A stretch of DNA of 42,071 nucleotides from Alphaproteobacteria bacterium (GTDB lineage Bacteria > Pseudomonadota > Alphaproteobacteria > Sphingomonadales > Sphingomonadaceae): contig SBHJ01000256.1 in assembly GCA_006226465.1 (NCBI GenBank), positions 1 to 42,071 of the forward strand, read 5' to 3'. Position numbers and translations under genes: made by a program. Below the pieces are notes generated by a model that worked only from the letters and a program-made list of their open reading frames with translations, searched no databases and had not been told where the DNA came from. Shown piece after piece: positions 419 through 29,628 of the stretch (positions are counted from its first letter, which is position 1; every line of letters begins with the position of its first letter).

Positions 419-1636
419 CTAAATGATCTTGTCGATGTCTTCGTACTTGGGAATCTGGAAGCGGGTATGGCTGATGGCACCATCACCAAAGTCTTCAACC
501 GGCTCACTACGATAGAATTCGTAAATCTCGCGAGAGCGCTGGAACGACAGAAAGGTCTGCCGCGCCTCCGCCAGATCGCAGAATAGCCTCAGGGCCGGGC
601 CGGCGTCGGCGGATGCCGGTCGGGAGATTGATCCGGCGTCGAACTGGGCACCCTTGAAATCGTAGCCGTCAACAAAGCGAACGTCTTCATTGTGCAGCTC
701 CTGCTTGAGGCCGGCAAGTTCGGTATCGTCGATGCCGACGAGCAGCACGTAGGGCGAGAAGGGCTTTGAATCTCGCTTGGAGAGCTTGGAATATTTCCGG
801 GAGATGGTCTTCAGAAGCGTTTTGACCGCGTTCCGGCTGTAGGTGTCGCCAGCCGGATGGATGATGAAAAGCCGGTCGGCCGGGGAGATATTGACGCCCG
901 CTGCGAAAAACTCGTTGCGCAGCGCGCGATAATATTTGGCCGTACCAAGCTTGGCGATGAACCACTCATCAAAGAGATAAGAAGATGTATCTATTCGCTT
1001 TATGAACGCTGTCCTCGTTGTGACGCGCAGAGCCTCGTCAGGTTCGATCGCCAGTTCTTTGATCACCCGCAGGGCACTGTTATAGTAGAAAAATTCGGCC
1101 GCGAACGGTGAGCAGCCGAACTGTTTGACAAGACTCTCGATGATCGCCTGAAATTGATCCTCGAATTTCACCGCATTCACGTCGATCGAAAGACGTTTCA
1201 AGAAGTCCTCAAGCTCAGCGTCACTGACACCAAGCTCTTCATGCTTTTTGACTGTCTTATCTTTTGATGCGGTTGTGAGAAAATTGGTCTTGAGGAAGGC
1301 GATATCGAACGGAAGCACCAGCTTGTCCTGCCCGGACGCAAAATGACCGCTGAGCTGGTACTGGATCGGTGGCCGGCCGGCGGTGAGGCCCGCCTTGTAG
1401 TGCGCGAGCATGAACATGATAGCGGGCTTTATAACCGACTGATTATACTCGGATTTCTCATAGTATTTGCACTGGACGGCAGTCGTTTCCGTAGCGGTGT
1501 GGACGTCGATATCCTCGATGCATTCGATCGCCACCGAGTCATTCGCACCGGCTAGCCCCAGGATGCTGAGGATCGAGCGATCGAATTGATAGAAATAGCC
1601 AGCAATCGTCGAAACTGCGCTCCGATCGGCCACCAT
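419..1636 (-). CDS. DUF4297/Cap4-type dsDNA nuclease domain protein (PD-(D/E)xK candidate)
   Basis: N-terminus STIAGYFYQFDRSIL...VAIECIEDIDVHTATETTAVQCKYYEKSEY matches the E...ED-(I/V)-D...QxKY pattern of DUF4297-like nucleases; directly upstream of a HerA-like gene. Confidence 0.65.
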   Translation of the reverse strand: MVADRSAVSTIAGYFYQFDRSILSILGLAGANDSVAIECIEDIDVHTATETTAVQCKYYEKSEYNQSVIKPAIMFMLAHYKAGLTAGRPPIQYQLSGHFASGQDKLVLPFDIAFLKTNFLTTASKDKTVKKHEELGVSDAELEDFLKRLSIDVNAVKFEDQFQAIIESLVKQFGCSPFAAEFFYYNSALRVIKELAIEPDEALRVTTRTAFIKRIDTSSYLFDEWFIAKLGTAKYYRALRNEFFAAGVNISPADRLFIIHPAGDTYSRNAVKTLLKTISRKYSKLSKRDSKPFSPYVLLVGIDDTELAGLKQELHNEDVRFVDGYDFKGAQFDAGSISRPASADAGPALRLFCDLAEARQTFLSFQRSREIYEFYRSEPVEDFGDGAISHTRFQIPKYEDIDKII

Positions 1637-1757
1637 TACCCCCTGCGGTGATCTGCTGCGCGGACATCGCGTCTGTATTCGCTCGTCATCGGAATCCCTA
1701 TTGTTCGGCCTCCCCCTTTTCTCGATGATCGCATATCGGCGATTGATAACTTCATCG

Positions 1758-4379
1758 TCACAACGTTATCCGATTTCCAGCGACATGTCTGAAGGCGCGA
1801 TCACGGCAGGTGAGAAGGACGACCTGCATGCGGCTTGCGGCCTCCGACAGAATTTCGATCATCGTGTCGAGACGGGCATCGTCGGAGTAGACCAGCGGAT
1901 CGTCCAGGATCAGCGACACGGGCTTCCCCTGCTCCAACAGCATATCGGCGAATGCAATCCGTGTGAGGACGGCAAGCTGCTCCTGCGTGCCGCGCGACAG
2001 GCTCGCGCAGCTTTCGTCCACGCCCGCACGGATCACGCTTTCGAGACCGAGATCCTCCGAAAAGTTGAGCTCGCATCCAGGCAGGAGGCGCTCGATATGA
2101 CGCTTCGCCCGCGCCGCCACCGGACCGACAAATTTGGCCGACGTCTCGTTGCGAGCGGCGTCGAGGGTGCTTCGCAGCACCTTCAGCGTTTCCGCTTCAT
2201 CGGTGATGCGCTCAAGAGCAAGATGAGCCGCCTCGACTTCCTCGAATGCGGCAGCTGTCCGATCGGCGAGGCCGAGTCCGCCCTCGCTCTCGATCGTCCC
2301 TTCAAGGCGCGCGATATCGGTCTCCAACCGCGTTCGGGTTTCCCCGGCCGTGCGCACTCTCGCATCGATCAATTCGATCTTGCGCGTGATCGCCGCGACG
2401 TCGTGCGCAGAGGCATCGCGGAGTGCGTCTTCAACCTTGACCGAAGCCTCGGCGGCTTGCTCGCGCGCCTTGGCCAGATCTTCCGTAAGCGTCGTCCACT
2501 CAGGTCGCCGCTCGATCGCGTCAAGTGCGCTTACGGCGTTGGCGACATCGCTCGAGGCCCTGGCTTCTGCCATCGCAAGGGGCGCTTCCTCCTGCTCGAC
2601 GCGACGCAGGGCCTCGATGGCGCTGTCCTGGGCCCCTTCGGCACGGGCTGCGGCGCTATCGGCCGTCTCCATCGCCTTCGTGAGCGCCACGATATCGGGA
2701 AGTTCCCCCTCCCCTATGGCCTCTTCCGCGCCGAGCTCGGCGACGAACAGCTTGAGCGCGGCGGATCCAGCGGCAAGCTGAAGGGCATCGTCGGCGGGCG
2801 TGGCCGCTTCGATGCGCGCCTCTAGGGTTCGCAGATCCGCTGCGGCATCCCTGGCGATCTCGTTGCGGGCTCTCGCGGCAGCAAGATCGGCGACGCCGAG
2901 ATCGTCAAGTGCCGATTTCCGCTTACGAAGCGCAGCCGCCAAGACCTCCGCGGCGCTGGCGGCAGACGTCGGCGGCGTGATCTGAAGCTCGGCGGCGCCG
3001 AGGCGGATATGGACCTCGCGATCAAGAGTGCGCGCGCCGAGTGCCATTGGCTCGCCATCAATCGTGATGCCGTCCGCTGTGCCGGACAACGCAATCCGGG
3101 TCGCGCCAGCGTTCACCACCGCCTGCGCTTCCGCAACGGCGCGATCATGCGCTTCAAGCGACGTCAGCACTTTCGGGGCGATCGCAGTGTCGGTGAGCAC
3201 CTTCGCGGTGCTGTGTTGTTCCTCAAGCTTCAGGAGGTCGGCATGTCGCCGGCACGCGGCCTGGACCGCTGCACCGCGACGGCATTGTCGAATCCGCTCT
3301 TCGCCTTCAGCTAGGGCCCTTTGCGCGGCCTGGCGGTCCGTGCGCGCGGAATCGAGCGCGGTGCGCGCATCCACCACCTTCTGCTTCGCCGCCGACAATG
3401 CGTCGGCAACCCCGAGACGCTGTTCGCTTGCCTGGGTCAGCGCGGCGTCCGCATTCGTCCGGGCCTGCGTCGCGTCATCGTGGCGCTGCCGAAGGTCCGC
3501 GAGCGCCTTCACCTTGCCGTTGGCCGCTTCCTGCTCGGCACGACGGGTGGTAAGGATCTGGGCCGCCGCCCGTGCGATATCGAGCGAAGCAACCAGGTCG
3601 CTACGCGTTTGCGAGTCCGTGTTGTCCGCCATCTCGCGCTGGATAATCTTCAAGCGGGCGCGAGCCGCCTCGACATCTGAGAAGCTGCGCTCCAGCGTGG
3701 CCAATCGATCCGCGGCTTCGCGCGCCGTGGTCTCGGCGGCCTCAAGCCGCTCACGCGCGTCGGTTTGCCGACCGCGCTTCTGGCCGGTCGGTGTCCAGTA
3801 GAGCTCATATTGAGCCTCGACCCGATCCCTGACGCGGCGATAGGCAGCGCCGCCCATGATCGACCCGACTTCCGCCTCGAGCGTGGAGGTGACGCTGTCG
3901 CGCACGATTTGGCCGGGCGCGGTCACGGACAAGGCCTCGGTCTGGGCGACCCAAAGCAAACCGAGTGCGCCATAAGTCGCGACATCACCGCCCCGGCTAG
4001 TGTCGCGGACCGAACCGAGCAGCGCATTCAAGCGCGCCTCGGCCTCCTCCCCTTGCGCACAGCCCTGAGGTCCGGAGACCTCGACCGATGCACTGCGCAA
4101 GAAATGCTTGGTCACCGACCAAGGCGCGCCATCCACATCGAAAGCGACCTCGATCTCAGGACCGACCGCATCGCCATGTGGAGCGAAGGATTGGGCCAGC
4201 TGATTGCGCGTGTTGAAGCGGACGAAGAAGGCCGCGCGCAAGGCCTCGAGAAGCGTCGACTTGCCCGTCTCATTCGGCTCGATGACGACGTTGAGGCCGT
4301 CGGTAAGGCCCTCGATCACGACGGGTGCGCGGAATTTCCGGAAATTCTTCACCGCGATGCGACGAATGACGAGGCTCAT
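1758..4379 (-). CDS. SMC-like AAA ATPase (Rad50/SbcC/YhaN-like)
   Basis: Walker A EPNETGKSTLLEALRAAFF; long Ala/Arg/Glu-rich coiled coil; signature LSRGTQEQLAVLTRIAFADML; Walker B SLILDDPLVYSDD. The start overlaps the stop of the Mre11-like gene (ATGA). Confidence 0.9.
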   Translation of the reverse strand: MSLVIRRIAVKNFRKFRAPVVIEGLTDGLNVVIEPNETGKSTLLEALRAAFFVRFNTRNQLAQSFAPHGDAVGPEIEVAFDVDGAPWSVTKHFLRSASVEVSGPQGCAQGEEAEARLNALLGSVRDTSRGGDVATYGALGLLWVAQTEALSVTAPGQIVRDSVTSTLEAEVGSIMGGAAYRRVRDRVEAQYELYWTPTGQKRGRQTDARERLEAAETTAREAADRLATLERSFSDVEAARARLKIIQREMADNTDSQTRSDLVASLDIARAAAQILTTRRAEQEAANGKVKALADLRQRHDDATQARTNADAALTQASEQRLGVADALSAAKQKVVDARTALDSARTDRQAAQRALAEGEERIRQCRRGAAVQAACRRHADLLKLEEQHSTAKVLTDTAIAPKVLTSLEAHDRAVAEAQAVVNAGATRIALSGTADGITIDGEPMALGARTLDREVHIRLGAAELQITPPTSAASAAEVLAAALRKRKSALDDLGVADLAAARARNEIARDAAADLRTLEARIEAATPADDALQLAAGSAALKLFVAELGAEEAIGEGELPDIVALTKAMETADSAAARAEGAQDSAIEALRRVEQEEAPLAMAEARASSDVANAVSALDAIERRPEWTTLTEDLAKAREQAAEASVKVEDALRDASAHDVAAITRKIELIDARVRTAGETRTRLETDIARLEGTIESEGGLGLADRTAAAFEEVEAAHLALERITDEAETLKVLRSTLDAARNETSAKFVGPVAARAKRHIERLLPGCELNFSEDLGLESVIRAGVDESCASLSRGTQEQLAVLTRIAFADMLLEQGKPVSLILDDPLVYSDDARLDTMIEILSEAASRMQVVLLTCRDRAFRHVAGNRITL

Positions 4380-5485
4380 GCCGGCTCCTCCCGGCTATAT
4401 TCGACGAAGAGGCGTTCAAGGGCACGCTTCGCGACCGCAGCATCCTCGCCGCCGCCTTCGATCCTCGTATTAAGCATCGCCGCTGCCGCCCCAAGCATGC
4501 CCTCGACGGCCAGGTTCGCAATGTCTTCTTCGCTCGGCCGACCAACCAGATCATCCGCGCGCACGTCGAGATACCGCAGCTGATGACCGATATCGTTTTC
4601 GAGCCGACCCAGCATGCCAATCCGGTCGCCGAGACTGGTGATACCAGCCAGCGTAAGGCGCAAAAGCGTTGTGGGCGCGTCGATCGCGCCGAGGAGCAAT
4701 TCGCACTCGGCATCGAACGCTGCCTGGTCACTGACCATCCACTCCCGCAAAAGCCATTGGAAGCGGCCTGTGCGGATCGGGGTGACGGACGGCTCCGCAC
4801 CAGTCGACAGCTCGACGACGAGGGCTTGTCCGGGATCGTCGCGCTGGAAGCGGTCGACTTCGGGCGTGCCGGCATACCAGGTGCGACCATCGACGCGGAG
4901 TGCCCCATGCCAGTCACCGAGCGCAAGATAGTCGAGGTTCGATCGGCGTGCGCGATCGGGCGCGATCTGGTTCTTCGTTTCGCCTTGCGAGCCAAAGTCG
5001 CGGATCGAACCGTGTGCGAGGCCGATACGCAGGGTCGCGCCGGGCGTCTCCATGGAGTCGAAACGGGCGGTGGGATCTTCGAGATTGTGGCGATGCTCAA
5101 GCGGCGCGGGCAACAGCCAGACGCCGGGGCTCATCTCGAACGGCTCGGGCGTCGACAAGATGACGATGTTCTCGCTCGCCCTTTGACGGACCCGATCCCA
5201 TAGTCCGCCATTGCGCGCGAAATCATGGTTGCCTGGAAGCAGCCACCAGCGACAGCTTTGACGGCTCATCCGGGATATAGCTTGGACGATCGTTCGGTCC
5301 TCCGGACCTTCGGTGTCGAAGATGTCGCCGGCAACGACGACGTGCTGTGCCCCGTGTTCGACCGCTGTGCGCCCAAGTGTGTCGATTGCCTCGAACCGCG
5401 CCTCGCTAAGGCCGGCCCGGACTTCGGGCTCGAAGCGCCCATACGGTTTGCCGAGTTGCCAGTCAGCAGAATGGATGAATTTCAA
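4376..5485 (-). CDS. Metallophosphoesterase, Mre11/SbcD-like
   Basis: MKFIHSADWQLGKP...VVVAGDIFDTEGPEDRTI...WWLLPGNHDFAR...LGDWHGALRVDGRTWYAGTPE: calcineurin-like phosphoesterase motifs DxH, GD, GNHD, GDxH. Preceded by GGGGGAGG as an RBS. Confidence 0.92.
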   Translation of the reverse strand: MKFIHSADWQLGKPYGRFEPEVRAGLSEARFEAIDTLGRTAVEHGAQHVVVAGDIFDTEGPEDRTIVQAISRMSRQSCRWWLLPGNHDFARNGGLWDRVRQRASENIVILSTPEPFEMSPGVWLLPAPLEHRHNLEDPTARFDSMETPGATLRIGLAHGSIRDFGSQGETKNQIAPDRARRSNLDYLALGDWHGALRVDGRTWYAGTPEVDRFQRDDPGQALVVELSTGAEPSVTPIRTGRFQWLLREWMVSDQAAFDAECELLLGAIDAPTTLLRLTLAGITSLGDRIGMLGRLENDIGHQLRYLDVRADDLVGRPSEEDIANLAVEGMLGAAAAMLNTRIEGGGEDAAVAKRALERLFVEYSREEPA

Positions 5486-6345: not shown

Positions 6346-8076
6346 TTATAGCCCCAACCCCCGCCCGCGCCCTAACGACCAGTCCACGCCGCCGTCGCCA
6401 CGCATGATGCCGGAGATGTGCTTGCCCATCTGCCGGTCGAGCGAGGGGGACCAGGGCACGAGTTGGAATCCGAGCCCATTGTCGATCATGGCGAAGCGAC
6501 CCGAGGCAAGGTTCAGACGCTGCCGCACCGTGCCCATGACGTAATCGCCGGTTTGTGACGGCGTATGCGGCAGGCCGATTTCCGTCGACAGTTTCTCGGC
6601 AGCGGCATCCAGTTCCCGCCTCCGGAGTGTATCGAGCAGATTGCGGGCGAAGATGATCCGCCGCCCCTGCCGCCGCGCCAGGCCCTCGTCGGCGAGATGC
6701 TCCGCCCGTGCTTCCATCGCGACCCGAACCTCCGCCCCGAAACCGCCCCCGAGGTCACGTCCATCGCCCGACAGGTTCCGCCGATCCAACCAGGTGGCAC
6801 CCGGCGCGCGGACCTGTGCGTTCAGGTCGAAGTCCGAGCGCACGGCCAGCGCCATCCGCTGCCGGCCCTTGCGATCCTTGAAGTGCCGTAGTTCGACAAT
6901 CGCACCGGGCCTGCAATCGCCGGTCGCATCGACGTCGAGAAGCTGAATATGGTGCGTGCGTCCGTCGATGCCGTCGACGATCGCATAGGCCCTGCCGGTC
7001 AGCTCGTCGTGCAACCCACGCTCGACCAGCCTGCCCATTACGTTCTGTCCGGGTTCGTGTTCGAGTGCATAGCTGGCTGAGCCCCGGTCTATGCCCCGCT
7101 CAGTCATGGCGCGGTGCATCCGCATGATGATGTCACCACGCGCCTGCAATTCGCGCAGCGCGGTTTCGGCATCGCCACGCATGGTCCACTGACCGGGCGC
7201 CACCTCGCTGGCGAGGCCGAGCCCTTCGAGTTTGCGCAAGCGGCCGATGCGCAGCGCATGATCCGGACCGGGCCGCGCTCCCCGTTCAGGCGCAGTGTCG
7301 ATGATGCCGTTGCGGTCGCGCTCTCGCGCCAATCTGTAATCCAGATCGGTCCAGCGTTCGGCATTGACCTGCCGCTCCAGCGACTGGTGGATTTCGAGAT
7401 CGGTGCGCAGGCCGAGTTCCTGCGTGACGATCTCGCGAGCCTGTGCCCGCATTCCCTCGCGGATGTAGTCGCGCGCAATCACGAGATCACGGCCGTCCTC
7501 GCCGACGCCGCGCACGATGACATGGATATGGGGGTTGTCGGTGTTCCAGTGCTCGACCCCGCGCCAGTCGAGACGGGTGCCGAGATCCCGTTCCATCTGC
7601 GTCATCAGTTCCCGCGTAAAGGTCTTGAGGTCGCGCATTTGCGCGGCGTCTTCGGGCGAGACGATAAAGCGGAAATGGTGCCGGTCATCCTCGCAGCGCG
7701 CGGTAAACTCGCTGCGGTCGAATTCGTCGCCCTCGGTCCCGAATAGCATGCCACGCTCGCCATCACGGGTGACGCCGTCGCGTTGCAGGTAATCGAGATG
7801 TGCACCAAGCGACGAGCGGCCTCCATGCCGGACCACGCGCGCCTTGATTACGACGTTGCGAGCCCGGCCACCGAGACGATGGGCGGCGCGAATGCTCGCC
7901 GCACGCCCGCGTCCGAAGGTCGAAAACCCCACACCGGAAGATCGTGCGCGTCCCGCGCCAAGGCCTCCGGCTCGCTGGGCGGCGGCAAGAGCCTGCGCGA
8001 TGGCGGGCCGTGTGCGCTGCCCGCCTCGCGTGCGGATGCGGCCTGGCCGGACACGGAAGTCATCCTCGCCTTTCAT
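6346..8076 (-). CDS. Relaxase/mobilization nuclease (VirD2/RlxS-like, DUF3363)
   Basis: MKGEDDFRVRPGRIRTRGGQRTRPAIAQALAAAQRAGG...RGVEHWNTDNPHIHVIVRG (HxH relaxase motif). ORF opens at 8103; start 8076 preferred by similarity to the usual N-terminus. Confidence 0.9.
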   Translation of the reverse strand: MKGEDDFRVRPGRIRTRGGQRTRPAIAQALAAAQRAGGLGAGRARSSGVGFSTFGRGRAASIRAAHRLGGRARNVVIKARVVRHGGRSSLGAHLDYLQRDGVTRDGERGMLFGTEGDEFDRSEFTARCEDDRHHFRFIVSPEDAAQMRDLKTFTRELMTQMERDLGTRLDWRGVEHWNTDNPHIHVIVRGVGEDGRDLVIARDYIREGMRAQAREIVTQELGLRTDLEIHQSLERQVNAERWTDLDYRLARERDRNGIIDTAPERGARPGPDHALRIGRLRKLEGLGLASEVAPGQWTMRGDAETALRELQARGDIIMRMHRAMTERGIDRGSASYALEHEPGQNVMGRLVERGLHDELTGRAYAIVDGIDGRTHHIQLLDVDATGDCRPGAIVELRHFKDRKGRQRMALAVRSDFDLNAQVRAPGATWLDRRNLSGDGRDLGGGFGAEVRVAMEARAEHLADEGLARRQGRRIIFARNLLDTLRRRELDAAAEKLSTEIGLPHTPSQTGDYVMGTVRQRLNLASGRFAMIDNGLGFQLVPWSPSLDRQMGKHISGIMRGDGGVDWSLGRGRGLGL

Positions 8077-8344
8077 GGCTGGCAGTCCCGTGATGTGCGG
8101 CAAAGCCGCTTAAACGGTGGGAAATGGCAAAAGGCACACATCGCGGACATTGCCGCGCACCTCGCGGCGGGCCGCCGCAAAGCCTTGTGAAACAAGGCCA
8201 CGACCGGCTGCAGAGGGCTTGGCACATCGCGGCTTTTATCTTGCCATCGATTTTTCCTCGTGAATTCAATAGACTTGCCACTGCTCCGCCGCCCTCCATC
8301 GGGGCCGAGAGCACGCCATGGGGCGCTGTAGGTGGCAACAGCCG

Positions 8345-9037
8345 TCATTGCCCTGAAAGCGATACGAAAAGACCGTTTGCCGGCGGCTTGGCGGCAACGG
8401 CTGGCGCGGTCGGCGAAGAATCCGAAGCTTCGTCAGTCACTGCATCCTCCGTATTCGGGATGCCATCTGCCCGTGCGGGAAACAGACCCGCGCGGCGCCA
8501 GGCAAATGGATCGGGCGGTGGCGCCGCAGCAAGCTTCGCGTGGCCGGAATTGCCCGTGACCGCTGTCAACTTCGCGAGATAGGCGCGCGTCTCGCGTGGC
8601 AGCGGACGGCCCCGCGAAAGATACTGTTCGTAGCGACCCGGCCCGGCATTGTAGGCGGCGAGCATGGCGGCCGCACTGCCGTAGCGGTCGTGCATCTCGC
8701 GCAGATAGGCCGCGCCCGCCATGATATTGTCTTGCGGATCGAACGGGTCCGATCCCAGCTGATAGCGCACGCGCAGATTGGCCCAGGTCGCGGGCATGAT
8801 CTGCATCAGGCCCATTGCGCCAGCGGTCGAAACAGCGCGCCTGTCGCCATTGCTCTCGACGCGCATGACGGCCCATATCCAGTCTTGGGGAATGCCGAAC
8901 CGCCGCGCTGCATCGGCCACATGCGCTGCATAAGGATGGGCCGTGGCAATGCCGGGCGCAGGTTCCGCAACGACCGGCGACGAACCGGCCATCTGCAAAG
9001 CGATTGCCAAAGTGGTGGCAAATGGCCTGCGTTTCAT
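8345..9037 (-). CDS. Lytic transglycosylase (SLT domain, conjugation-associated)
   Basis: Signal-like N-terminus; AARRFGIPQDWIWAVMRVESNGDRRAVSTAGAMGLMQIMPATWANL...AAYNAGPGRYEQYLSRGRPLPRETRAYL. Confidence 0.93.
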   Translation of the reverse strand: MKRRPFATTLAIALQMAGSSPVVAEPAPGIATAHPYAAHVADAARRFGIPQDWIWAVMRVESNGDRRAVSTAGAMGLMQIMPATWANLRVRYQLGSDPFDPQDNIMAGAAYLREMHDRYGSAAAMLAAYNAGPGRYEQYLSRGRPLPRETRAYLAKLTAVTGNSGHAKLAAAPPPDPFAWRRAGLFPARADGIPNTEDAVTDEASDSSPTAPAVAAKPPANGLFVSLSGQ

Positions 9038-9591
9038 GGCGCGATTCCCCGCCAGATCAGCGGTCCGTCCGCTGTATCGCGGGTGAGCATCGGCGTCGCG
9101 CGGCCCAGCAGTGTCATGGCCGAAAGCGGTCCGAAATAGCGGCCGTCCAGGCTGTCAGGCACGTAGGGGTTCATGAACAGAAATTCGCCCGACCGGAGGT
9201 TGTGACACCCCTGCCAGACCGGCAGCGGGCGGCCTTGGCTGTCGCGATCCAGCGCAACGGCAACGGGCCGGCGATCGACACTGACCATGTTGCCGATGCG
9301 GCAAACACGCTGCCCCGCTTTTGCCTCGACATGTTTCAGAAGCGGCACGCCTTCCGGGAGATAGCCGCGCTCGGCTATCCAGCGTGCCCATGGCCGCGGC
9401 GGGGTAACAGCTACCAATGCACCGGACGGCGGATCGTCGTCGGCGTGTATCCGGTAGAAACCGATCGGTGCGCTCGCGCTGGCGTTCCAGATGACGCGCG
9501 GACGCGGATCGGCAAGCGCCACCGTGACGAACAAGACGATAAACGCCTGCGCGGTAACGACCGTGGTGATGACATAGCCGAAGCGGGTCAT
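9034..9591 (-). CDS. traF: TraF-like S26 family signal peptidase
   Basis: MTRFGYVITTVVTAQAFIVLFVTVALADPRPRVIWNASASAPIGFYRI...LKHVEAKAGQRVCR. ATG at 9591 overlaps the TGA of the upstream DUF2840 ORF. Confidence 0.9.
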   Translation of the reverse strand: MTRFGYVITTVVTAQAFIVLFVTVALADPRPRVIWNASASAPIGFYRIHADDDPPSGALVAVTPPRPWARWIAERGYLPEGVPLLKHVEAKAGQRVCRIGNMVSVDRRPVAVALDRDSQGRPLPVWQGCHNLRSGEFLFMNPYVPDSLDGRYFGPLSAMTLLGRATPMLTRDTADGPLIWRGIAP

Positions 9592-10106
9592 CCCTCGATC
9601 TCCCGCCGCTTGAGCCAGGCAAGGTGACGTTCCATCGTATAGGGCCGCGGGCTTTGCCCGGCGGCGATACGGTTGTGAACATGGCGCCAATGATCTGGTG
9701 CGGCTTCGCAGGGATCGACACCGGCGGCCTCCACATTGTCGATCGCGGACAACACCTGATTGACCTTCGGCCAGCCTTCGATGTGAAGCAGAATCTCTCC
9801 TCCGGGCCGCACGAACGGCAAGGTCGTGTAGGCTTCGCCGTGCGCGACGGCGCGCAGCACATCGATGCGCGAACTGATCGTTCCATAGTCGTTCGCCATC
9901 CAGCGGACGAAGGCGAAGATCGCGCCGGGTTGGAAGCCGACGACGCGGGTCTTGCGCGTGACAATGCGGTCCTGCGCAATTCGGCCGAAGCGTATCCAGT
10001 GCTCGAACTTCTTCTCGATCCAGGTCAGTTCGACTTCGGTCAGCTGCTTGCGTGCCGAGCCCAATGCGCGGCCTCCGCGCGCACCGCCCGGTGCGTCGTT
10101 ATTCAT
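9588..10106 (-). CDS. DUF2840 domain protein
   Basis: LTEVELTWIEKKFEHWIRFGRIAQDRIVTRKTRVVGFQPGAIFAFVRWMANDYGTISSRIDVLRAV; lies directly before traF in this element family. Confidence 0.88.
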   Translation of the reverse strand: MNNDAPGGARGGRALGSARKQLTEVELTWIEKKFEHWIRFGRIAQDRIVTRKTRVVGFQPGAIFAFVRWMANDYGTISSRIDVLRAVAHGEAYTTLPFVRPGGEILLHIEGWPKVNQVLSAIDNVEAAGVDPCEAAPDHWRHVHNRIAAGQSPRPYTMERHLAWLKRREIEG

Positions 10107-10277
10107 TGCCGATCTCCTTTGAGCCGCCGTCGAGCAGTCGCCTTGCCGGCGACGCAGCGCGCGATCTGTCCACAGCGGCGAGCTGCGTTAGCAAGAATCC
10201 GAAGGATTCGATTCTATTAGCACTGTTAGAAGGGGTGCGATTCCGTGAGGATTTCTGCGGGATTGCGGGCCACTCGC

Positions 10278-10340
10278 GTTCCCGATAGTCCGAGGATCGC
10301 GTTCCTGATGGTCCGAGTCCGGGTGTTCCCGATAGTCCGA
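10278..10340. repeat. Three iteron-like direct repeats GTTCCYGATRGTCCGA
   Basis: Copies at 10278-10293, 10301-10316 and 10325-10340 (first and third identical, second with two differences), start spacing 23 and 24 bp, immediately after the repA stop. Confidence 0.85.
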
Positions 10341-10343
10341 ACC

Positions 10344-11258
10344 TCATGACCGGCTATCCACAGCGTCAATGCCCATTCGGCGCCTGGCGGCGTCGAGTGG
10401 ATGCTCCGGGATGGGCGCGAAGTTCAGCCGATCACGGCCAAGTGCATGTTCGAGCTTGAGGACGTAACCGGGTAGAGGCTGGCGGGCGACGATCGCGCGT
10501 AACTCGAAAGCGAAGCGGCGCAGCGGCGAAAGCACGCCGGACTTCATGTGAAGGTGGGGAACGTCGAAGCTCCAACCGCCTTCCTGCCTCCCGCCATGCT
10601 TGCGCACGATGCGGTAAAGCCAGCGCTCCAATCCGCCAGTCAGATCGAAATAGGCCCGGTCTATCGTCAGCACGAGCGCGCGGTCGAGCACACCAGCATA
10701 GAACCAGTCCGGCAGGATCAACTCGATCCCGAGCGCCCGGCCCTGGCCGTCCGCTAGTTCACGCCATTCGTTGATCCACGAGAAGCGATGACGGCGACGC
10801 TGATGCTCCTGCCGGATCGACGTTGCGACAGTGGTGGATTGCAGCCGGTCGAGCGCAGCCTTGAGCCGTTCGTAGCTCGCCTTGCCGGTGCCGCGCCGGG
10901 TGAACGCCAATATCTCGTGCGGCGTCGTTATCATGAGACGCGAAGTGGGCCGGCCGGCATCGCGCGCCTCGATGAGCTGGCTTGCCGCCCAGATCAGCAC
11001 GTCGGCATCCCAAATGGTCGCCATGCCATGTTCTGGCACGGCCTCGACCGATATGCGGGTCTTGCCCATACTGAAATCGATCGGCGCTATGCGCCTGCTC
11101 TTGGCCAGACTGAAAAATGGCCAGGCCATCAGATCCTGCGCATCGCGCGGCGTGAGATTGCCGGGAACCGAACGGAACAGTTCCAGCTGCGTCCGTTCGG
11201 CGCCGGAGCGGGTGGAAGAAGACTGTGCAACGCCCATGGGTCTCAGCGTCGCACGCAA
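10344..11258 (-). CDS. repA: Replication initiator protein RepA-like
   Basis: QLELFRSVPGNLTPRDAQDLMAWPFFSLAKSRRIAPIDFSMGKTRISVEAVPEHGMATIWDADVLIWAASQL...GGLERWLYRIVRKHGG. Confidence 0.9.
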   Translation of the reverse strand: MRATLRPMGVAQSSSTRSGAERTQLELFRSVPGNLTPRDAQDLMAWPFFSLAKSRRIAPIDFSMGKTRISVEAVPEHGMATIWDADVLIWAASQLIEARDAGRPTSRLMITTPHEILAFTRRGTGKASYERLKAALDRLQSTTVATSIRQEHQRRRHRFSWINEWRELADGQGRALGIELILPDWFYAGVLDRALVLTIDRAYFDLTGGLERWLYRIVRKHGGRQEGGWSFDVPHLHMKSGVLSPLRRFAFELRAIVARQPLPGYVLKLEHALGRDRLNFAPIPEHPLDAARRRMGIDAVDSRS

Positions 11259-11509
11259 TCAGTGGGGAGGCGCTTGGCTGGGTGGACAACGCCATTGCCA
11301 GGATCGGAGGTCGAACGGCGCAATCCCTGTTCAGCCCATGCTTCGAGATCGTCTACTCGATACACAATCCGCCCACCCAGCTTGTGGTAGGCAGGTCCGG
11401 TGCCGAAACAGCGGTGCTTCTCAAGCGTGCGGGGCGACAGACCCAGGTGAACAGCTGCGTCCGGGGTGCGCAAGTAACGCGGGCGTATTGGGGCTGGAAC
11501 GGCGTCCAT
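11243..11509 (-). CDS. Small HTH protein (AlpA/MerR-like; RdfS-like excisionase candidate)
   Basis: RYLRTPDAAVHLGLSPRTLEKHRCFGTGPAYHKLGGRIVYRVDDLEAWAEQGLRRSTS; first gene of the repA-traF-LT-relaxase operon. Confidence 0.85.
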   Translation of the reverse strand: MDAVPAPIRPRYLRTPDAAVHLGLSPRTLEKHRCFGTGPAYHKLGGRIVYRVDDLEAWAEQGLRRSTSDPGNGVVHPAKRLPTDCVRR

Positions 11510-11681
11510 AAGAAATCTCCGCTAGGTGCTGGGGGCGGCGGCCAACTGCCGCCCCTCGCGGAGTGGAATGGCGCATCGGTGAGGCCGGGTGGGAGTGACA
11601 AGCTTGCAGGCCGAGCATCTGTCACCCCGGGCGCCGCTATGAGGCTGCCCCGTTCAAAAGGATGACGGGCGACCCCCGGCC

Positions 11682-12248
11682 TCAACTGAGGCGGCAATGG
11701 GGCGGAATGTGGGAAAGGACTTGCCTGTAGCCAGTCGACGCCAATCTTCTTGCTTCCGCCATAAGGCGCAGCGTGTGGCGTCTCTCGCTCGATCCTTTCC
11801 ATGTGGCGCCCTTCAACGGCCGCATTTTCGGAAAGATCTGGGAAAAGGCGATCTCGTGGGTGCTGGCTCCTGCCAGCCGCGCATCCAGGATGGTCAGCAG
11901 CCTTGCCAACCGCTGACGCTGGTATGCGGTGGGAGCAATCAGAGGGTTGGCGGCACGGCGCTTTCGGCCCCACAAGGCAACTAGAAAGTCTCGCATTGCC
12001 TCGGTCCGGAGGAGCACGAAGCCGTCGTCGGGCAAGACGAAGATAGCAGCGTCTGATTGACTGTTGCGCTGAACCCAGAGTCGAAATCGTGCCGAACCAA
12101 TCTGTAAGATGGAATGTTCCCCATCCGTACAGCTGCAATTGTGGGTCCTGACTTTACTCCAGGGTGGCTTTCCAAGAATCAGGCTGGTGCGTCTTTGGCA
12201 GATGATTGTCGTGCCGAGCACGCCTGGAGACCAGTGCGCGGGTTCCAT
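11682..12248 (-). CDS. DUF2285 domain ORF (C-terminal half of an FseA-like activator, joined by +1 frameshift)
   Basis: FVLLRTEAMRDFLVALWGRKRRAANPLIAPTAYQRQRLARLLTILDARLAGASTHEIAFSQIFP...HTLRLMAEARRLASTGYRQVL. In-frame sequence upstream of its ATG reads CDPEKSPI and continues the DUF6499 ORF. Confidence 0.85.
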   Translation of the reverse strand: MEPAHWSPGVLGTTIICQRRTSLILGKPPWSKVRTHNCSCTDGEHSILQIGSARFRLWVQRNSQSDAAIFVLPDDGFVLLRTEAMRDFLVALWGRKRRAANPLIAPTAYQRQRLARLLTILDARLAGASTHEIAFSQIFPKMRPLKGATWKGSSERRHTLRLMAEARRLASTGYRQVLSHIPPHCRLS

Positions 12249-12480
12249 AATTGGAGATTTTTCCGGATCGCAGGGGAAAACTAAGGCCCCACCGTCGAGC
12301 CAGACCCTCCCTCTCTTTCACGGCAAGTTCGGGGGCTAATGCAACGCGTTGCTCGGTTCTGGAGAAGTCCCGGCGGTAATCCGGGTTTCGTCGCAAAAAT
12401 TCCTGCGCGAAATCAGCGTAATCGTGGTTCTCATATCGACCGTTCGTGTCGGGCGATTGCCATGATGTATTACCAGACAT
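12154..12480 (-). CDS. DUF6499 domain ORF (N-terminal half of an FseA-like activator)
   Basis: YENHDYADFAQEFLRRNPDYRRDFSRTEQR...LARRWGLSFP then shifts at CCC-C (complement of 12276-12273). Confidence 0.85.
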   Translation of the reverse strand: MSGNTSWQSPDTNGRYENHDYADFAQEFLRRNPDYRRDFSRTEQRVALAPELAVKEREGLARRWGLSFPLRSGKISNYGTRALVSRRARHDNHLPKTHQPDSWKATLE

Positions 12481-12640: not shown

Positions 12641-12898
12641 CTATCGTTGGATGGCCAGTTGCCGATAACCGGCACGGGCCATCCAGCGCGCACGCGCGAG
12701 ATGAGTCTCGTAAACCGTTTTGGCCCGCTTAGGTTCAGCGTGCGCATCGATCTGAAAGATAATGGCGGCAACCTCCCGCCAATCTGCGCCTTCCGCAACG
12801 GCGTCGAGCAAGCGGAGATAAGTCACGAAGTTCCGCTCGTCATAATCGGTGATGGTATCAGCCTGAGGAGGACTAACCTCAAATCCAGTCGAGATCAC
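12641..12898 (-). CDS. Small DUF2285 protein (QseM-like antiactivator candidate)
   Basis: 85 aa: DTITDYDERNFVTYLRLLDAVAEGADWREVAAIIFQIDAHAEPKRAKTVYETHLARARWMARAGYRQL. Confidence 0.85.
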   Translation of the reverse strand: MISTGFEVSPPQADTITDYDERNFVTYLRLLDAVAEGADWREVAAIIFQIDAHAEPKRAKTVYETHLARARWMARAGYRQLAIQR

Positions 12899-20131: not shown

Positions 20132-21805
<1,674 letters not shown>

Positions 21806-21921
21806 TACGGCAGCTGGCCCCGGCGCTCGCGCCGGGGCCCTTCACACTCTTTCTGGTTCCAATCGGCATGCGGGGAGCTGGGCAATTCTCCCTGCCTGCT
21901 CCGTGCATGGAGGATTGAAAC

Positions 21922-23016
21922 ATGAAGATTGCCCAGATTGCTCCGATCGCCGAAAGCGTACCGCCGCGCCTTTATGGAGGCACGGAAAGGATTGTTTCCT
22001 ACTTGACCGAAGAACTGGTCCGACAGGGCCATGATGTAACGCTATTCGCCAGCGGGGACTCAACGACCGCAGCGGAACTGGTTCCGATTACAGAGACCGC
22101 GCTCCGCCTCAATCCGTTGATTGTCGATGCCATTCCTCATCACATGATCCTGCTGGATGAGGTGGCGCGGCGGGCCCACGAGTTCGACGTTCTCCACTTC
22201 CATATCGACCTGCTGCATGCGCCGTTGACCCGCAGTTTTGCGAACAAGACGCTGACGACCCTTCACGGTCGTTTGGATCTTCCCGATCTTCAGCCCTTCT
22301 ACCGCCGCTTCTCGGATATGCCGTTGGTGTCCATCTCGGACCACCAGCGTCAACCGATGCCGCCCGTCAACTGGGCGGGCACCGTCTACCACGGGCTTCC
22401 GCGCGATCTCTTGCCGGCCACACTGGAAGCAAAGGGAGACTATCTTGCCTTTCTCGGTCGCATTTCTCCTGAAAAGCGCCCCGACAGGGCAATTGAGATC
22501 GCTGCTCGTTCCGGCATGCCGCTCAGGATCGCCGCCAAGGTGGACAAGGCCGATCAGACATACTGGGATGAAATGATCGCTCCGATGATCGCGGCCAATC
22601 CCAATGTCGAATTCATCGGGGAGATCGACGAACATCAGAAGGCGGAATTTCTGGGCAATGCCCGTGCACTTCTGTTTCCAATCGACTGGCCCGAACCTTT
22701 TGGGCTGGTGATGATCGAGGCGATGGCATGCGGTACGCCCGTCATCGCCTTTCGTTGCGGTTCCGTGCCGGAAGTGATCGACGAAGGGGTGTCAGGTTAC
22801 ATTGTCACCGATGTGGACGAGGCGGTCCAGGCCGTGCAGCGGCTTGACGCGCTGGACCGTGCGGCCGTGCGAACGGCATTTGAAGCACGTTTCTCGGTCG
22901 AACGGATGGCCCAAGACTATGTGAAAATCTACAAGTCACTGCACAGAGGATATCTGGATGGCCTGGATGTCGACAGGTTAGTCGAAGCAGATCCGACACT
23001 CGAAAGTGAAGCCTGA
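21922..23016 (+). CDS. Glycosyltransferase family 4 protein
   Basis: MKIAQIAPIAESVPPRLYGGTERIVSYLTEELVRQGHDVTLFASGDS...FLGRISPEKRPDRAIEIA...WPEPFGLVMIEAMACGTPVIAFRCGSVPEVIDEGVSGYI. Confidence 0.93.
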   Translation: MKIAQIAPIAESVPPRLYGGTERIVSYLTEELVRQGHDVTLFASGDSTTAAELVPITETALRLNPLIVDAIPHHMILLDEVARRAHEFDVLHFHIDLLHAPLTRSFANKTLTTLHGRLDLPDLQPFYRRFSDMPLVSISDHQRQPMPPVNWAGTVYHGLPRDLLPATLEAKGDYLAFLGRISPEKRPDRAIEIAARSGMPLRIAAKVDKADQTYWDEMIAPMIAANPNVEFIGEIDEHQKAEFLGNARALLFPIDWPEPFGLVMIEAMACGTPVIAFRCGSVPEVIDEGVSGYIVTDVDEAVQAVQRLDALDRAAVRTAFEARFSVERMAQDYVKIYKSLHRGYLDGLDVDRLVEADPTLESEA

Positions 23017-23036
23017 TTCAGGCGAGGGGAAGCGAG

Positions 23037-25256
23037 ATGGATATGGCCGTAGCTGGTTCAGATTCTGCCCGGGCGACAGAGCCCAATGGCATCGCGAAAG
23101 CACCAACTCAGTTCTTCGTTCCGGCAACTGCCTCGTTGCATGAACGAAGACCGCGTACGCTCAAGCACGGCGATACGTTCGCGGTGTTCGATCACAGTGG
23201 GGATGCCATCAGCGGCCATGGAAGTCCGGAAGGGCTGTATCACCGGGATACACGCCATCTCTCGCATTTCTATCTGACACTCATGGGCGGGGTGCGGCCG
23301 ATTCTTCTCAGTTCCGCATTGAGAGACGACAATGCGACGTTGACCTGTGATCTAACGAATCCGGATATCCACGATGAGGGCGGCGAATGCGTCTTGCGGA
23401 ATGACCTCGTCCACATCCGCAGGACGCGCTTCCTCTGGAACGGCGTCGCATATGAACGGCTGTCGCTCTTCAACTACGACGATCAGCCGCATCGATTGTC
23501 AGTGGAGATCGGTTACGCCGCTGATTTCGCCGATCTGTTCGAGGTGCGCGGCACGGTTCGCCCAAAGCGCGGAGAGCGATGCTCTCCGGTGTTCGGTGAT
23601 GACCATGTGGTGCTGAGCTATATTGGCCGCGACAATCTGACGCGTCATACCACTCTGAGGTTTTCACCGCAGCCACAGGTTATCAGCCACGATCAGGCTG
23701 TCTTCTCATTCGAATTGGGGGCAGGCGAGCGGCAATCCATTCTTATTGAGGTGCATTGCGGGGAAGCGGATCTGAACCAGGATCTGCGTACCTCTTTCAT
23801 ACGCTCGTTCCGGGCTGCAAGGAGGGCGTTGCGCGCATCTTCCTCGCGGGCTGCCGCAGTCGCATCATCCAATGAGATTTTCAATCAGGCGCTTCGCCGC
23901 TGTGTGGCGGACATCTACATGCTTGTCACAGACACGGAGCATGGCCCCTATCCATACGCCGGCATTCCCTGGTTCAGCACGATCTTCGGGCGCGACGCGC
24001 TTATTACAGCGTTGGAAACGCTGTGGATCGATCCGGAAATCGCTCGCGGTGTCCTGTCCTATCTCGCGGCGAAACAGGCAAAGGAATTCGATGCGGCCGC
24101 CGATGCAGAACCTGGCAAGATCCTCCATGAGGTTCGCCGCGGTGAAATGGCGGAATTGGGAGAAGTGCCGTTCCGCCACTACTACGGCAGCATCGATTCC
24201 ACCCCCCTCTTTGTCATCCTGGCCGGCGCATACCTTCAGCGTACAGATGACGTCGAATTCGCCCGAGCTATCTGGCCGAATGTCGAAGCCGCCCTGCGTT
24301 GGATCCAGGACCATGGCGACCGGGATGGCGACGGCTATGTCGAATATGGCCGACACACGCAGGAAGGGCTGGCCAACCAGGGCTGGAAAGACAGTTACGA
24401 CTCTGTTTTCCATGCAGACGGTCGCCTGGCAGCTGGACCGATCGCGCTCGCTGAAGTGCAAGCCTATGTCTATGGAGCGTGGGAAGCCGGGGCCGCGATG
24501 CTTGATCGACTGGGCAACGCCAAGGAGGCCCAGTCACTGAGAATGCGGGCCGAGGCGTTACGCGAGCGGTTCGACCGCGACTTCTATGACGAGGATCTCC
24601 GTACATACGTTCTTGCACTGGATGGAGAGAAACGGCCCTGCCGGGTTCGTTCGTCCAATGCGGGACACGTTCTCTTTACCGGGCTTGCCAAGCCCGAGCG
24701 CGCCGCTGCCGTCGTCGAGACATTGATGTCGCCTTCCAGTTTTTCCGGCTGGGGCATTCGTACGATTGCCACCACCGAAGCCCGATACAATCCCATGAGT
24801 TATCATAATGGTTCGATCTGGCCACATGATAACGCGTTGATTGCGGCGGGCTTCTCCCGTTATGGATTCCGGCTGGAGGCTTCGATGATTTTCGAGGCCT
24901 TGATGGGCGCTTCAACTTATGTCGACCTCCGCCGTCTTCCGGAGTTGTTCTGCGGCTTCCCCCGTCGTCCGGTACAGGGTCCGACCTTTTATCCGGTGGC
25001 CTGCATTCCGCAGGCATGGTCCGCGGCCGCGCCGCTCTTCCTGATTCAATCGAGTCTCGGCCTCAGTTTCGATGCGAAGGCCGAACACATCATTTTCAGC
25101 GAACCTGTTTTGCCGAACTTTCTGGATGAACTCCACATTCGCCACGTTCGCGCCGGCGATGGACGTGCCGACATCATGTTGAGGCGCTCGGGCGAGAAGG
25201 TTCTGGTCGATGTTCTGGATCGTACGGGCGACGTGCGAGTTCTGTCGATGGTATGA
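23037..25256 (+). CDS. Amylo-alpha-1,6-glucosidase / glycogen-debranching-type protein
   Basis: LKHGDTFAVFDHSGDAISGHGSPEGLYHRDTRHLSHFYLTL...GIPWFSTIFGRDALITALETLWIDPEIARGVLSYLA...NPMSYHNGSIWPHDNALIAAG. Confidence 0.92.
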   Translation: MDMAVAGSDSARATEPNGIAKAPTQFFVPATASLHERRPRTLKHGDTFAVFDHSGDAISGHGSPEGLYHRDTRHLSHFYLTLMGGVRPILLSSALRDDNATLTCDLTNPDIHDEGGECVLRNDLVHIRRTRFLWNGVAYERLSLFNYDDQPHRLSVEIGYAADFADLFEVRGTVRPKRGERCSPVFGDDHVVLSYIGRDNLTRHTTLRFSPQPQVISHDQAVFSFELGAGERQSILIEVHCGEADLNQDLRTSFIRSFRAARRALRASSSRAAAVASSNEIFNQALRRCVADIYMLVTDTEHGPYPYAGIPWFSTIFGRDALITALETLWIDPEIARGVLSYLAAKQAKEFDAAADAEPGKILHEVRRGEMAELGEVPFRHYYGSIDSTPLFVILAGAYLQRTDDVEFARAIWPNVEAALRWIQDHGDRDGDGYVEYGRHTQEGLANQGWKDSYDSVFHADGRLAAGPIALAEVQAYVYGAWEAGAAMLDRLGNAKEAQSLRMRAEALRERFDRDFYDEDLRTYVLALDGEKRPCRVRSSNAGHVLFTGLAKPERAAAVVETLMSPSSFSGWGIRTIATTEARYNPMSYHNGSIWPHDNALIAAGFSRYGFRLEASMIFEALMGASTYVDLRRLPELFCGFPRRPVQGPTFYPVACIPQAWSAAAPLFLIQSSLGLSFDAKAEHIIFSEPVLPNFLDELHIRHVRAGDGRADIMLRRSGEKVLVDVLDRTGDVRVLSMV

Positions 25257-25268
25257 TGAGGAAGAGCC

Positions 25269-26684
25269 ATGGAACGACTGATCGTCATTTCTAGTCTCGT
25301 TCATGCCTTGGCTGAAGGCGAAGCCGAAGCGCATGGAGGTGGCCTGCCGCAGCCAATCGTATCGGCAATGGCAGGTCGGAATGCGCTGTGGTTTGGCTGG
25401 TCCGGCAAAGTCACCGAACGCTTTACCGGTTCGTTGAAACTCGAATGCCGCGACGGGATGCGGATGGCGAGTGTCGATCTGGACGCCGCCGATATTGATG
25501 AGTTCGTGAATGGGTATGCCAACCGGACATTGTGGCCGATGCTCCACGGCCGTACCGATCTTGCGGAATTCGAACGTCATTTTACGGACGGCTATGAGCG
25601 GGGCAATTCCCGTTTGGCCCGGTCAATTATGCCCTTAATCGAGGAGGACCACCTTGTCTGGGTGCACGATTATCCCTTGTTCCTGGTGGCAAATGAACTG
25701 CGCGCGTTGGGGTGCGACAACAGGATCGGCTTCTTCCTGCACACGCCCTGGCCGCACCGTTCGATACTGACCGCTCTGCCCGACCATGCCAGGATGGTTC
25801 AAGCCTTGCTGTGCTATGACGTGATCGGCTTTCAAACTGAAGATTACCGACAGGCCTTTCTCGATTATCTCGAAAGCGAACTCGGCATCTCTCCGACTGA
25901 GGATGGCCTGATCGAATTCGAAGGCCGCTGCATCAGGGTCCTCGCTCTGCCCGTAGGTATTGATGCAGCCGAATATCGAGATTTGCTGGCCAGCCCCGAG
26001 GCGCGGGCCAGCCATCAGGCTTCCATGGAAAGCGCGAATGGCAGGAGCATGATCGCCGGAGTCGATCGGCTGGACTTTTCAAAAGGGCTACCGCAGCGTT
26101 TTGCCGGTTATGACCGTTTCCTCTCCGCGCGGCCCGATATGCAGGAGCAGATTTTCCTGCTCCAGATCGCACCGCCCGCGCGCAATGACATTCCGTGCTA
26201 CAGTCATATCCGCGAAGAACTCGAAGCTCTTTCAGGCCGCATCAACGGCAAACATGCGACCTCGAACTGGGTGCCGATCCGCTATGTGAACCGTGAGCAC
26301 AGCAGGCAGCAACTTGCGGGAATCTTCCGGGCGGCCCGGATCGGGCTCGTGACTCCACTTCAGGACGGCATGAACCTTGTGGCGAAGGAGTTCGTCGCGG
26401 CACAGGATCCTGAAAATCCCGGAGTCCTTATTCTGTCGAAATTCACCGGAGCGGCGGCTCAGCTGAAAGAGGCGCTCACCATCAATCCATTCAGCGCTGA
26501 CGAATTAGCGGAAGCTATCGAACAGGCGCTCAAGATGCCGGTCGCAGAGCGCAAGCGTCGCTGGCGCTCGCTATACGACATCGTGAACCGGGAAGATGCG
26601 GCTTGGTGGTGTGACAGTTTTCTCCAGCGACTGCGCGGCTCATCCGAAATCGAAAGGCCGGTGCTCTTGTCGCAAGCGGCGTAG
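25269..26684 (+). CDS. otsA: Alpha,alpha-trehalose-phosphate synthase
   Basis: NRTLWPMLHGR...VWVHDYPLFLVANELRALGCDNRIGFFLHTPWPHRSIL...GVDRLDFSKGLPQRF...TPLQDGMNLVAKEFVAAQDPENPGVLILSKFTGAAAQL. Confidence 0.95.
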   Translation: MERLIVISSLVHALAEGEAEAHGGGLPQPIVSAMAGRNALWFGWSGKVTERFTGSLKLECRDGMRMASVDLDAADIDEFVNGYANRTLWPMLHGRTDLAEFERHFTDGYERGNSRLARSIMPLIEEDHLVWVHDYPLFLVANELRALGCDNRIGFFLHTPWPHRSILTALPDHARMVQALLCYDVIGFQTEDYRQAFLDYLESELGISPTEDGLIEFEGRCIRVLALPVGIDAAEYRDLLASPEARASHQASMESANGRSMIAGVDRLDFSKGLPQRFAGYDRFLSARPDMQEQIFLLQIAPPARNDIPCYSHIREELEALSGRINGKHATSNWVPIRYVNREHSRQQLAGIFRAARIGLVTPLQDGMNLVAKEFVAAQDPENPGVLILSKFTGAAAQLKEALTINPFSADELAEAIEQALKMPVAERKRRWRSLYDIVNREDAAWWCDSFLQRLRGSSEIERPVLLSQAA

Positions 26685-27100
26685 GAGCAATTCAGGCGTT
26701 CTTGTAGGGCTTGTCCAAAAGCCATGTCTTCACGCCAGATCGGGCGCGGAGCTGAAAAGCCTGCCTTCGCGGGTCATAGAAGCGCGCCTCGTCCGACAGG
26801 ATGAAGAGATTTGCGAGAGCAGAACGCCGATGCAGGAGGCACTGATTCAGATCAGTGCGCCGTCTACCACCTGATGGAAGAAGAGCTTCATGGATGGAGA
26901 GCTCTTACATCTTGTCTCTCTCAGCGCATGGGCTGCCAGCGCTCGCTTGTGGCGGTCCCGTAACTCCGATCGGAAAGCCGGATCGGCTGCCTGCCTTACG
27001 CAAATTAGCGTCTGCCAATTCGAGGCGTCGGCATGATCTTCATGCCGCTGAAAATGAAGGCCGGCCCAGTCTGAAAATTGCCTTAGGGAAGGGAAGCACG

Positions 27101-28072
27101 ATGGATCAGAATAAGAAGTGCCGCAGAATACGGGTACTGAATCGGGTCTCGGTCAGAGGTCTCTATGCTGCGTTGCTCCTTGGCGTATCCGTCAGCGCAA
27201 GCGCTCAGGAAAGCGACAAGGAATCTACAGCCCCGCCGAGCCAAGCGGAGGCGACAGAAGCAGTTGGAGCATCTGTTGGTGAAAAAGCAGGTGATGAAGT
27301 CACCAAGAAGCGCGCCGAACTTCTTTCCGAAGCTGTGGAGGCGCTCCAGCAGACCAAACTTGCGATCGAGCATCTCGACAAGCAAGACGGAAAGAAAGCG
27401 CTGGATGCCCTCGCGACAGCTACGGGCAGGCTCGACATAATCTTGGCTCGGGATCCGGGCCTTGCGCTGGCGCCCGTTGATGTCGTGACCAGCCGCACAG
27501 ACATCATCGCGACAGTCGCCGACGTCAGGAAAATCCGGGACAGAATTGAAGCGCTCGTGAAGGAGGGGCGTCTGCAGGACGCGCGAGTGTTGATGGAAAC
27601 CTTCGCCAGCGAGATTCGGATCCACACCACCAATATTCCCCTCGCAACATATCCTGCCGCCATCAGAGGGGCTGCTCGTCTCATCGATCAAGGCAAGTTG
27701 GCTGAGGCTAAATCCGCCCTCAACACTGCTTTATCGACCCTGGTGATCGAGGAAGAGGTTCTGCCGCTTCCGCTTTTGCGTGCTCAGGCAATGCTGAGTG
27801 CCGCAGAGAAACAGCTGCAAGACGGCTCTGCGAAGGCGGCGGACGAAGAGTCAGAGAAATCGCAAATCGACCCCACCATCTTCATCGACAATGCCTCGTA
27901 TCAGGTGGAGCTCGCGAGGGCTCTGACATACGGCAATGACAGCCTTTATGAGAAGCTTGCTCGGGACATAGAGGATTTGAAGAAGAAGGTCTCCGCCAAG
28001 AACGAATCGAGGGATCTGTTTGAATCAATAGATAAGCAGATCGATAATCTCGAAACGACAGTTAATGATTGA
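27101..28072 (+). CDS. YfdX family protein (exported)
   Basis: Signal peptide RGLYAALLLGVSVSASAQES; KKRAELLSEAVEALQQTKLAIEHLDKQDGKKALDALATATGRLDIILARDPGLALAPVDVVTSRTDII. ORF opens at 26855; internal ATG at 27101 preferred (purine-rich RBS, signal peptide). Confidence 0.85.
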   Translation: MDQNKKCRRIRVLNRVSVRGLYAALLLGVSVSASAQESDKESTAPPSQAEATEAVGASVGEKAGDEVTKKRAELLSEAVEALQQTKLAIEHLDKQDGKKALDALATATGRLDIILARDPGLALAPVDVVTSRTDIIATVADVRKIRDRIEALVKEGRLQDARVLMETFASEIRIHTTNIPLATYPAAIRGAARLIDQGKLAEAKSALNTALSTLVIEEEVLPLPLLRAQAMLSAAEKQLQDGSAKAADEESEKSQIDPTIFIDNASYQVELARALTYGNDSLYEKLARDIEDLKKKVSAKNESRDLFESIDKQIDNLETTVND

Positions 28073-28088
28073 CCAGAAGGAGGCGGAA

Positions 28089-28358
28089 TTGTCCGACAAA
28101 CCCTTCCTTGAAACTGTTCCCAGAAAGCTTCCCTGGATACTGGCAGCTTTGCTGGCGATCGCTCTCCTCGTTTGGTTCATTGGCCCGTTTGGCCAGGAAG
28201 AGGAAAAGGAGGTAACCTATGTTCCTGGCGCTAAGGATATCAGCGGTGGGGAATTGATAGTAACCGAACCTGATCCCCTTGCGGTCCCGGTGGAGCTGCC
28301 CAAGACGCCAATGACGCCTGTTCCACCTGAAAAGGGAGAGGCAGCTTCAGAACAATAA
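28089..28358 (+). CDS. Small single-pass membrane protein
   Basis: LPWILAALLAIALLVWFIGPFG transmembrane segment. AGGAGG precedes a TTG start at 28089; the ATG of the listed ORF (28065) lies inside yfdX. Confidence 0.65.
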   Translation: MSDKPFLETVPRKLPWILAALLAIALLVWFIGPFGQEEEKEVTYVPGAKDISGGELIVTEPDPLAVPVELPKTPMTPVPPEKGEAASEQ

Positions 28359-28683
28359 TCGCGCCTCTCACTCTGCCGTTGCCCGATCCGCACTTTAGCC
28401 TCGCGCTGACCTTTCACATACTGGGTTGCCCGATATCGTGGTGGAGGCGCGGCTCTGGATGGCCTGGTGCAAGCGACTTTCGCGGGTTCCATCAAGACCA
28501 CATAGACGTTCAAAACCTGCGTCGAATGGCGCGCGTATGAGCAGTGTCGCATTATGCGCACAGGGCGGGAGTTACGCGGCGCGCGGACACGCTGCATTTC
28601 GCCGAATTTTCGGGTTCACCAGGAATTGAAACAGGTCGTCCTTCACCTAAATCAGTGCTGAATAACAGGTTGGAGGACCCACA

Positions 28684-29553: not shown

Positions 29554-29628
29554 ATAGTCAGTAGCCGAGGTTGCGCGCCGTCGGTGTTCGTCAGGGATCA
29601 ATAGCCCGACAAACCGGCGGCGCGAAAC

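Follow-up and report, generated by a model that had tools for sequence, protein, structure and literature searches.

An FseA-type DUF6499-DUF2285 gene divided by a conserved +1 frameshift on a sphingomonad mobile element, with a probable UUU-Y slip site

The window, by which we mean the whole 42,071-nt stretch of DNA that was analysed, carries two overlapping reading frames on its minus strand, 12480-12154 and 12248-11682, whose extent the first-pass annotation had given exactly. The 0-frame ORF matched the Pfam family PF20109 (Trans_reg_dom, which is DUF6499), and the frame that is entered on skipping one C (12272-11682) matched PF10074 (RovC_DNA-bd, which is DUF2285), in agreement with the domain types assigned earlier. 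A one-base skip within 12276-12273 would yield a single FseA-like protein that includes ...RRWGLSF-P-CDPEKSPIMEPAHW...; its 265 aa equal the length of about 265 that had been proposed for a continuous DUF6499-DUF2285 product. The features of the locus and of the surrounding element are listed here.

12154-12480, minus strand: DUF6499 half of FseA, the 0-frame ORF, 108 aa (PF20109, E=1.8e-20)
11682-12275, minus strand: DUF2285 half of FseA in the +1 frame, read after the slip as CCC TGC GAT ... (PF10074, E=1.4e-22)
12273-12279, minus strand: proposed +1 slip site UUU CCC C, with the conserved core UUU-Y at 12279-12276
12286-12291, minus strand: TGGGGC (Trp-Gly), at the position of the reported Shine-Dalgarno-like TGGGGG beside the FseA frameshift site (WG codon counts in relatives)
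11243-11509, minus strand: RdfS-like recombination directionality factor, 88 aa, HTH_17 (PF12728, E=1.8e-10)
11592-11628, minus strand: imperfect inverted repeat GGGGTGACA-N19-TGTCACTCC, candidate FseA box upstream of the rdfS-like gene (sequence)
12641-12898, minus strand: lone DUF2285 ORF upstream of fseA, QseM-like candidate antiactivator (PF10074, E=4.5e-9)
8345-11258, minus strand: transfer block with SLT transglycosylase (Msi107-like), S26 peptidase (TraF-like), DUF2840, an 82-aa ORF and a RepA-like initiator (Pfam)
6346-8103, minus strand: RlxS-like relaxase (DUF3363; NF041267, E=5.4e-169, 564 bits, under the curated cut-off of 850; PF11843, E=9.5e-88)
29629-30891, minus strand: tyrosine integrase at the right-hand end of the element (PF00589, E=6.7e-13)

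FseA frameshifting was reportedly first described in a 2015 PNAS paper, and the fold of FseA has already been published. In Mesorhizobium japonicum R7A, a low-frequency +1 programmed frameshift joins msi172 and msi171 to make FseA, which switches on rdfS by way of an inverted repeat and is itself blocked by QseM; of 4709 FseA homologues, about 61% carry a +1 site (PMC10359603). All of the FseA-type sequence features that we looked for were found in the window: DUF6499, DUF2285, a +1 offset beside WGL, and linkage to rdfS with an inverted repeat. The AWEFLRRN-like N-terminal motif of the FseA type was also present, reading FAQEFLRRN. Judged by its sequence, the window gene is an FseA-type DUF6499-DUF2285 activator and one more member of the published family. 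The FseA-like function type proposed at first pass is supported.

The sequence around the junction is read TGG (12291-12289) GGC CTT AGT TTT (12279-12277) CCC (12276-12274) C (12273) TGC GAT, in which CTT AGT TTT CCC C corresponds to 12285-12273 of the minus strand. From the window locus alone the shift can be placed only within about 160 nt, between the opening of the +1 frame at 12317 and the stop codon of the 0 frame at 12156-12154. Relatives narrow its position to a few codons. These were collected by a PF20109 search across about 1,200 prokaryote genomes, which gathered about 170 loci, and profiles for both domains were built from the collected loci themselves. Removal of duplicates left 129 +1 genes and 36 fused genes. 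We anchored 126 distinct +1 genes on the Trp codon (TGG) of WG(L), an anchor that left out three others (L156, L032 and L046). Sampling was uneven across genomes, and related sequences swell the raw family counts; to limit this inflation the TTT-bearing genes were also clustered at 50% protein identity, which gave 53 clusters. Some relatives have a +1-frame stop just ahead of the site and one has a 0-frame stop right behind it, and together the stops in individual relatives bound the shift to W+10 to W+18, that is AGC-TTT-CGC, the three codons around TTT. The 0-frame tail past the slip codon, which lies outside the fusion, comprises 41 codons in the window fseA and is of no conserved length among relatives (2 to 237 codons).

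The conserved element of the +1 family is TGG GGN YTN NNN TTT Y. A TTT codon was present in 125 of the 126 anchored genes, either four (121 genes) or five (4 genes) codons after the Trp of WG(L), the one exception (L025) having TGT CGC where the others have TTT. The base after TTT was C in 117 of these 125 genes, T in 8 and a purine in none, and a pyrimidine also came next in 53 of the 53 clusters with less than 50% protein identity. The 0-frame codon that follows TTT was mostly CCC (54) or CGC (47), and Phe codons elsewhere in the same genes numbered 207 TTT vs 423 TTC. Outside the TGG anchor, L156 contains TTT CGC, and no clear slip site was recognisable in the distant +1 genes L032 and L046. 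The skipped base encodes nothing in the fusion, yet it is always a pyrimidine, which fits re-pairing of tRNA-Phe(GAA) from UUU to UUY. On this family-wide pattern, slippage most likely occurs from UUU to UUY by the P-site tRNA-Phe. We arrived at the UUU-Y pattern independently, and it may already be published. The WG codons upstream of the site were TGGGGG in 74, TGGGGC in 35, TGGGGT in 11 and TGGGGA in 3 of the 126 relatives; the window copy is TGGGGC rather than the commoner TGGGGG, and UGGGGG at WGL has been suggested as a possible stall site (PMC10359603).

The first-pass annotation had placed the shift on CCC-C, where tRNA-Pro would move from 12276-12274 to 12275-12273. Perfect re-pairing is possible at this position, and TTTCCCC occurs in the window, in Novosphingobium sp. 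PC22D and in the eleven next most similar relatives, being nearly constant in this close clade. Both slips would give the identical peptide here (F-P-C-D), so that mass spectrometry of the junction cannot tell UUU from CCC slippage. Across the family, however, CCCC was present at the site in only 22 of the 125 TTT-bearing +1 genes and in 6 of the 53 clusters, while TTT-Y was kept; moreover, TTT CGC, the site of many relatives, does not allow the equivalent re-pairing of the A-site codon. CCC-C is therefore ruled out as the family-wide slip codon, and the near-invariant element is instead TTT followed by C or T. That the window itself slips on CCC-C, or that both slips contribute in its clade, we consider unlikely, although worth bearing in mind.

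The two halves could also be made as separate proteins that are never fused, DUF6499 on its own and a lone DUF2285 protein, the translation of which would be coupled or begin at an internal start. Lone DUF2285 proteins of the QseM type do exist, and one is encoded upstream of the window fseA. The +1 frame, however, is open and resembles the fused homologues up to the slip codon, independent starts would not require a pyrimidine at the skipped position in 125 of 125 genes, and many relatives encode one continuous protein. These properties leave the two-protein reading with very little probability.

That the offset reflects programmed frameshifting had been proposed from the window together with a worry over base calls in CCCC. 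Strain PC22D (L003) is a separately sequenced isolate that carries the closest relative of the window element, 98.6% identical over 3.8 kb, and it has the identical site TTTTCCCCTGCG, which contradicts sequencing error. Of the 5 nt at which the two copies differ in the +1 half, 4 are synonymous changes; dN/dS in this half was 0.13-0.26 for close pairs of relatives, and both halves of fseA are under purifying selection. Among 171 DUF6499+DUF2285 pairs, 134 were offset by +1, 37 were in frame and none was offset by -1. Since random indels would yield both offsets, the +1 offset goes beyond chance or decay, and the earlier claim gains support in that the offset is a conserved and selected feature. 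In-frame homologues without CCCC, which had been expected to point to a simple mutation, do exist (37 of the 171 pairs), L134 near the window's clade being one, but they are the less frequent type and lie scattered, and most members of the clade that holds the window are +1; the expectation was thus too simple. A one-base insertion in a once-fused gene, whether it arose as a pseudogene or as a sequencing or assembly error, is for practical purposes ruled out by the PC22D copy, by the +1 offset shared with most relatives and by purifying selection past the shift. Transcriptional slippage at TTTTCCCC to restore the frame is negligible and was rejected as well, since the short T/C run of the window locus has no counterpart as a conserved homopolymer at the family site (TTT CGC, TTT TGC).

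In a tree of 150 fused sequences built with FastTree, parsimony counts 11 changes between the frameshifted and the fused state, and well-supported branches force 7 of them; the counts are approximate, as this is the fastest tree method and several branches are long. The window belongs to a well-supported group of 16 members, 14 with frameshifted and 2 with fused genes. Near its clade, L134 (G793:C3:20750-22250) has an in-frame fused fseA in which GTT replaces TTT at the site, and its rdfS is preceded by an inverted repeat like that of the window clade; L134 is a naturally occurring form that has lost its need for the frameshift. We give roughly even odds to the combined proposal that the family slips by tRNA-Phe on UUU-Y with a CGC- or CCC-type next codon and has switched many times between a frameshifted and a fused fseA, with at least 7 switches forced by well-supported branches and 11 counted by parsimony. 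If this is true, dependence on the frameshift would be an evolvable setting for the ease of element excision.

The RdfS-like gene lies directly downstream of fseA and has the place and size of RdfS, and 117 of the collected loci have an rdfS-like frame following the fseA pair. The inverted repeat with N19 was present in 10 loci, including the window and PC22D (which has one change) and mostly from the window's clade, and is a candidate FseA box. Similar lone DUF2285 genes lie upstream of fseA in eight examined relatives (L003, L005, L007, L060, L062, L072, L103 and L107).

These elements can be arranged into a model. Translation of the DUF6499 half would begin at 12480, and the P-site tRNA-Phe (anticodon GAA) on UUU at 12279-12277 would occasionally re-pair on UUC at 12278-12276. 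After the slip, the next codons would be CCC UGC GAU, adding the DUF2285 DNA-binding half to give the 265-aa FseA, whereas ribosomes that did not slip would end at 12154 and release a short DUF6499 protein. In a further step FseA would switch on the adjacent rdfS-transfer operon via the inverted repeat at 11628-11592 and excision would start, with the upstream lone DUF2285 protein as a candidate QseM-type brake. The model as a whole, in which this is the fseA of an ICEMlSym/Tn4371-like element and a UUU-Y frameshift makes the FseA that activates rdfS and excision, has in our estimate a probability of about 0.88. Slipping in the host, UUU rather than CCC as the slip codon, activation of the rdfS promoter and control of excision are steps that we infer, the last because of the gene order and the biology of R7A.

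The gene order past fseA is RdfS-like, RepA-like initiator, 82-aa ORF, DUF2840, S26 peptidase, SLT transglycosylase and RlxS-like relaxase. The window thus contains the ICEMlSym/Tn4371-like gene block (rdfS, RepA-like, DUF2840, traF, SLT, rlxS), the content and order of which are the same in non-symbiotic mesorhizobial ICEs (PMC8627217). No trb (T4SS) conjugation cluster was found among the window ORFs scanned, and the contig runs for 6.3 kb beyond rlxS; the draft genome, which is 68% complete, has a CagE_TrbE_VirB gene on another contig, C316, of 3.5 kb. A tRNA scan for an attachment site detected no tRNA in the window. Colinearity with PC22D stops at 29553, beside the integrase, and the integrase together with a Methyltransf_4 gene (30975-31676, TrmB-like) matches a different PC22D contig at 90% (window 29553-31683), an arrangement suggesting that the element integrated beside trmB or that the integrase module was exchanged. 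Between the conserved end of the element and the integrase is an inverted repeat of about 66-70 bp with 77% identity (29565-29630), perhaps a terminator or an att-related sequence.

The plus strand from 20186 to 29553 encodes stress cargo that is about 98% identical to PC22D: proteins of the Cpn60-type chaperonin, glycosyltransferase, glycogen-debranching and GT20 trehalose-phosphate synthase types, YfdX and an M48 peptidase. On the minus strand, 419-5485 encodes in a row a DUF4297/LmuA-like protein (PADLOC DUF4297, E=6.1e-143), an SMC-type ATPase and a calcineurin-like phosphoesterase, which by sequence looks like a Lamassu-type defence cassette. Since PC22D has only a partial counterpart (1767-5484) with 70% identity, this cassette may be an exchangeable module. 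PC22D also has a second, more distant element (65-77%) with the same transfer-gene block (G1147 C3:120096-128737).

Genome annotation splits fseA in two, and on many elements the master activator of excision can be recovered once the slip site is recognised. A testable refinement is that UUU-Y serves as the slip codon, as indicated by the base-by-base pattern across more than 120 relatives. The FseA homologues of proteobacterial ICEs and plasmids share the domain pair and the +1 offset with the window gene, with no difference that matters (PMC10359603). RovC of Yersinia (PDB 6xz5), after which PF10074 is named, has been described as distantly related to FseA (PMC10359603) and has a DUF2285-type DNA-binding fold in common with it, but RovC activates a type VI secretion system and not mobile-element excision. 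Closest in kind is FseA (Msi172-Msi171) of ICEMlSym(R7A) from Mesorhizobium japonicum, with which the window gene shares DUF6499 plus DUF2285 and the +1 frameshift beside the WGL motif; rdfS as the target gene and a QseM-type lone DUF2285 brake are also common to both, in the window as a predicted target and a candidate brake. TraR/TraI, in comparison with ICEMlSym(R7A), were not found among the window ORFs scanned. The window repeat probably has its own sequence and has a 19-base gap from TGACA to TGTCA, whereas that of R7A consists of two hexamers 16 bp apart. Unlike ICEMlSym(R7A), the window holds a sphingomonad element with stress-protein cargo and with fseA immediately upstream of rdfS, and its gene is a further, independent example of the FseA frameshift switch, from a sphingomonad.
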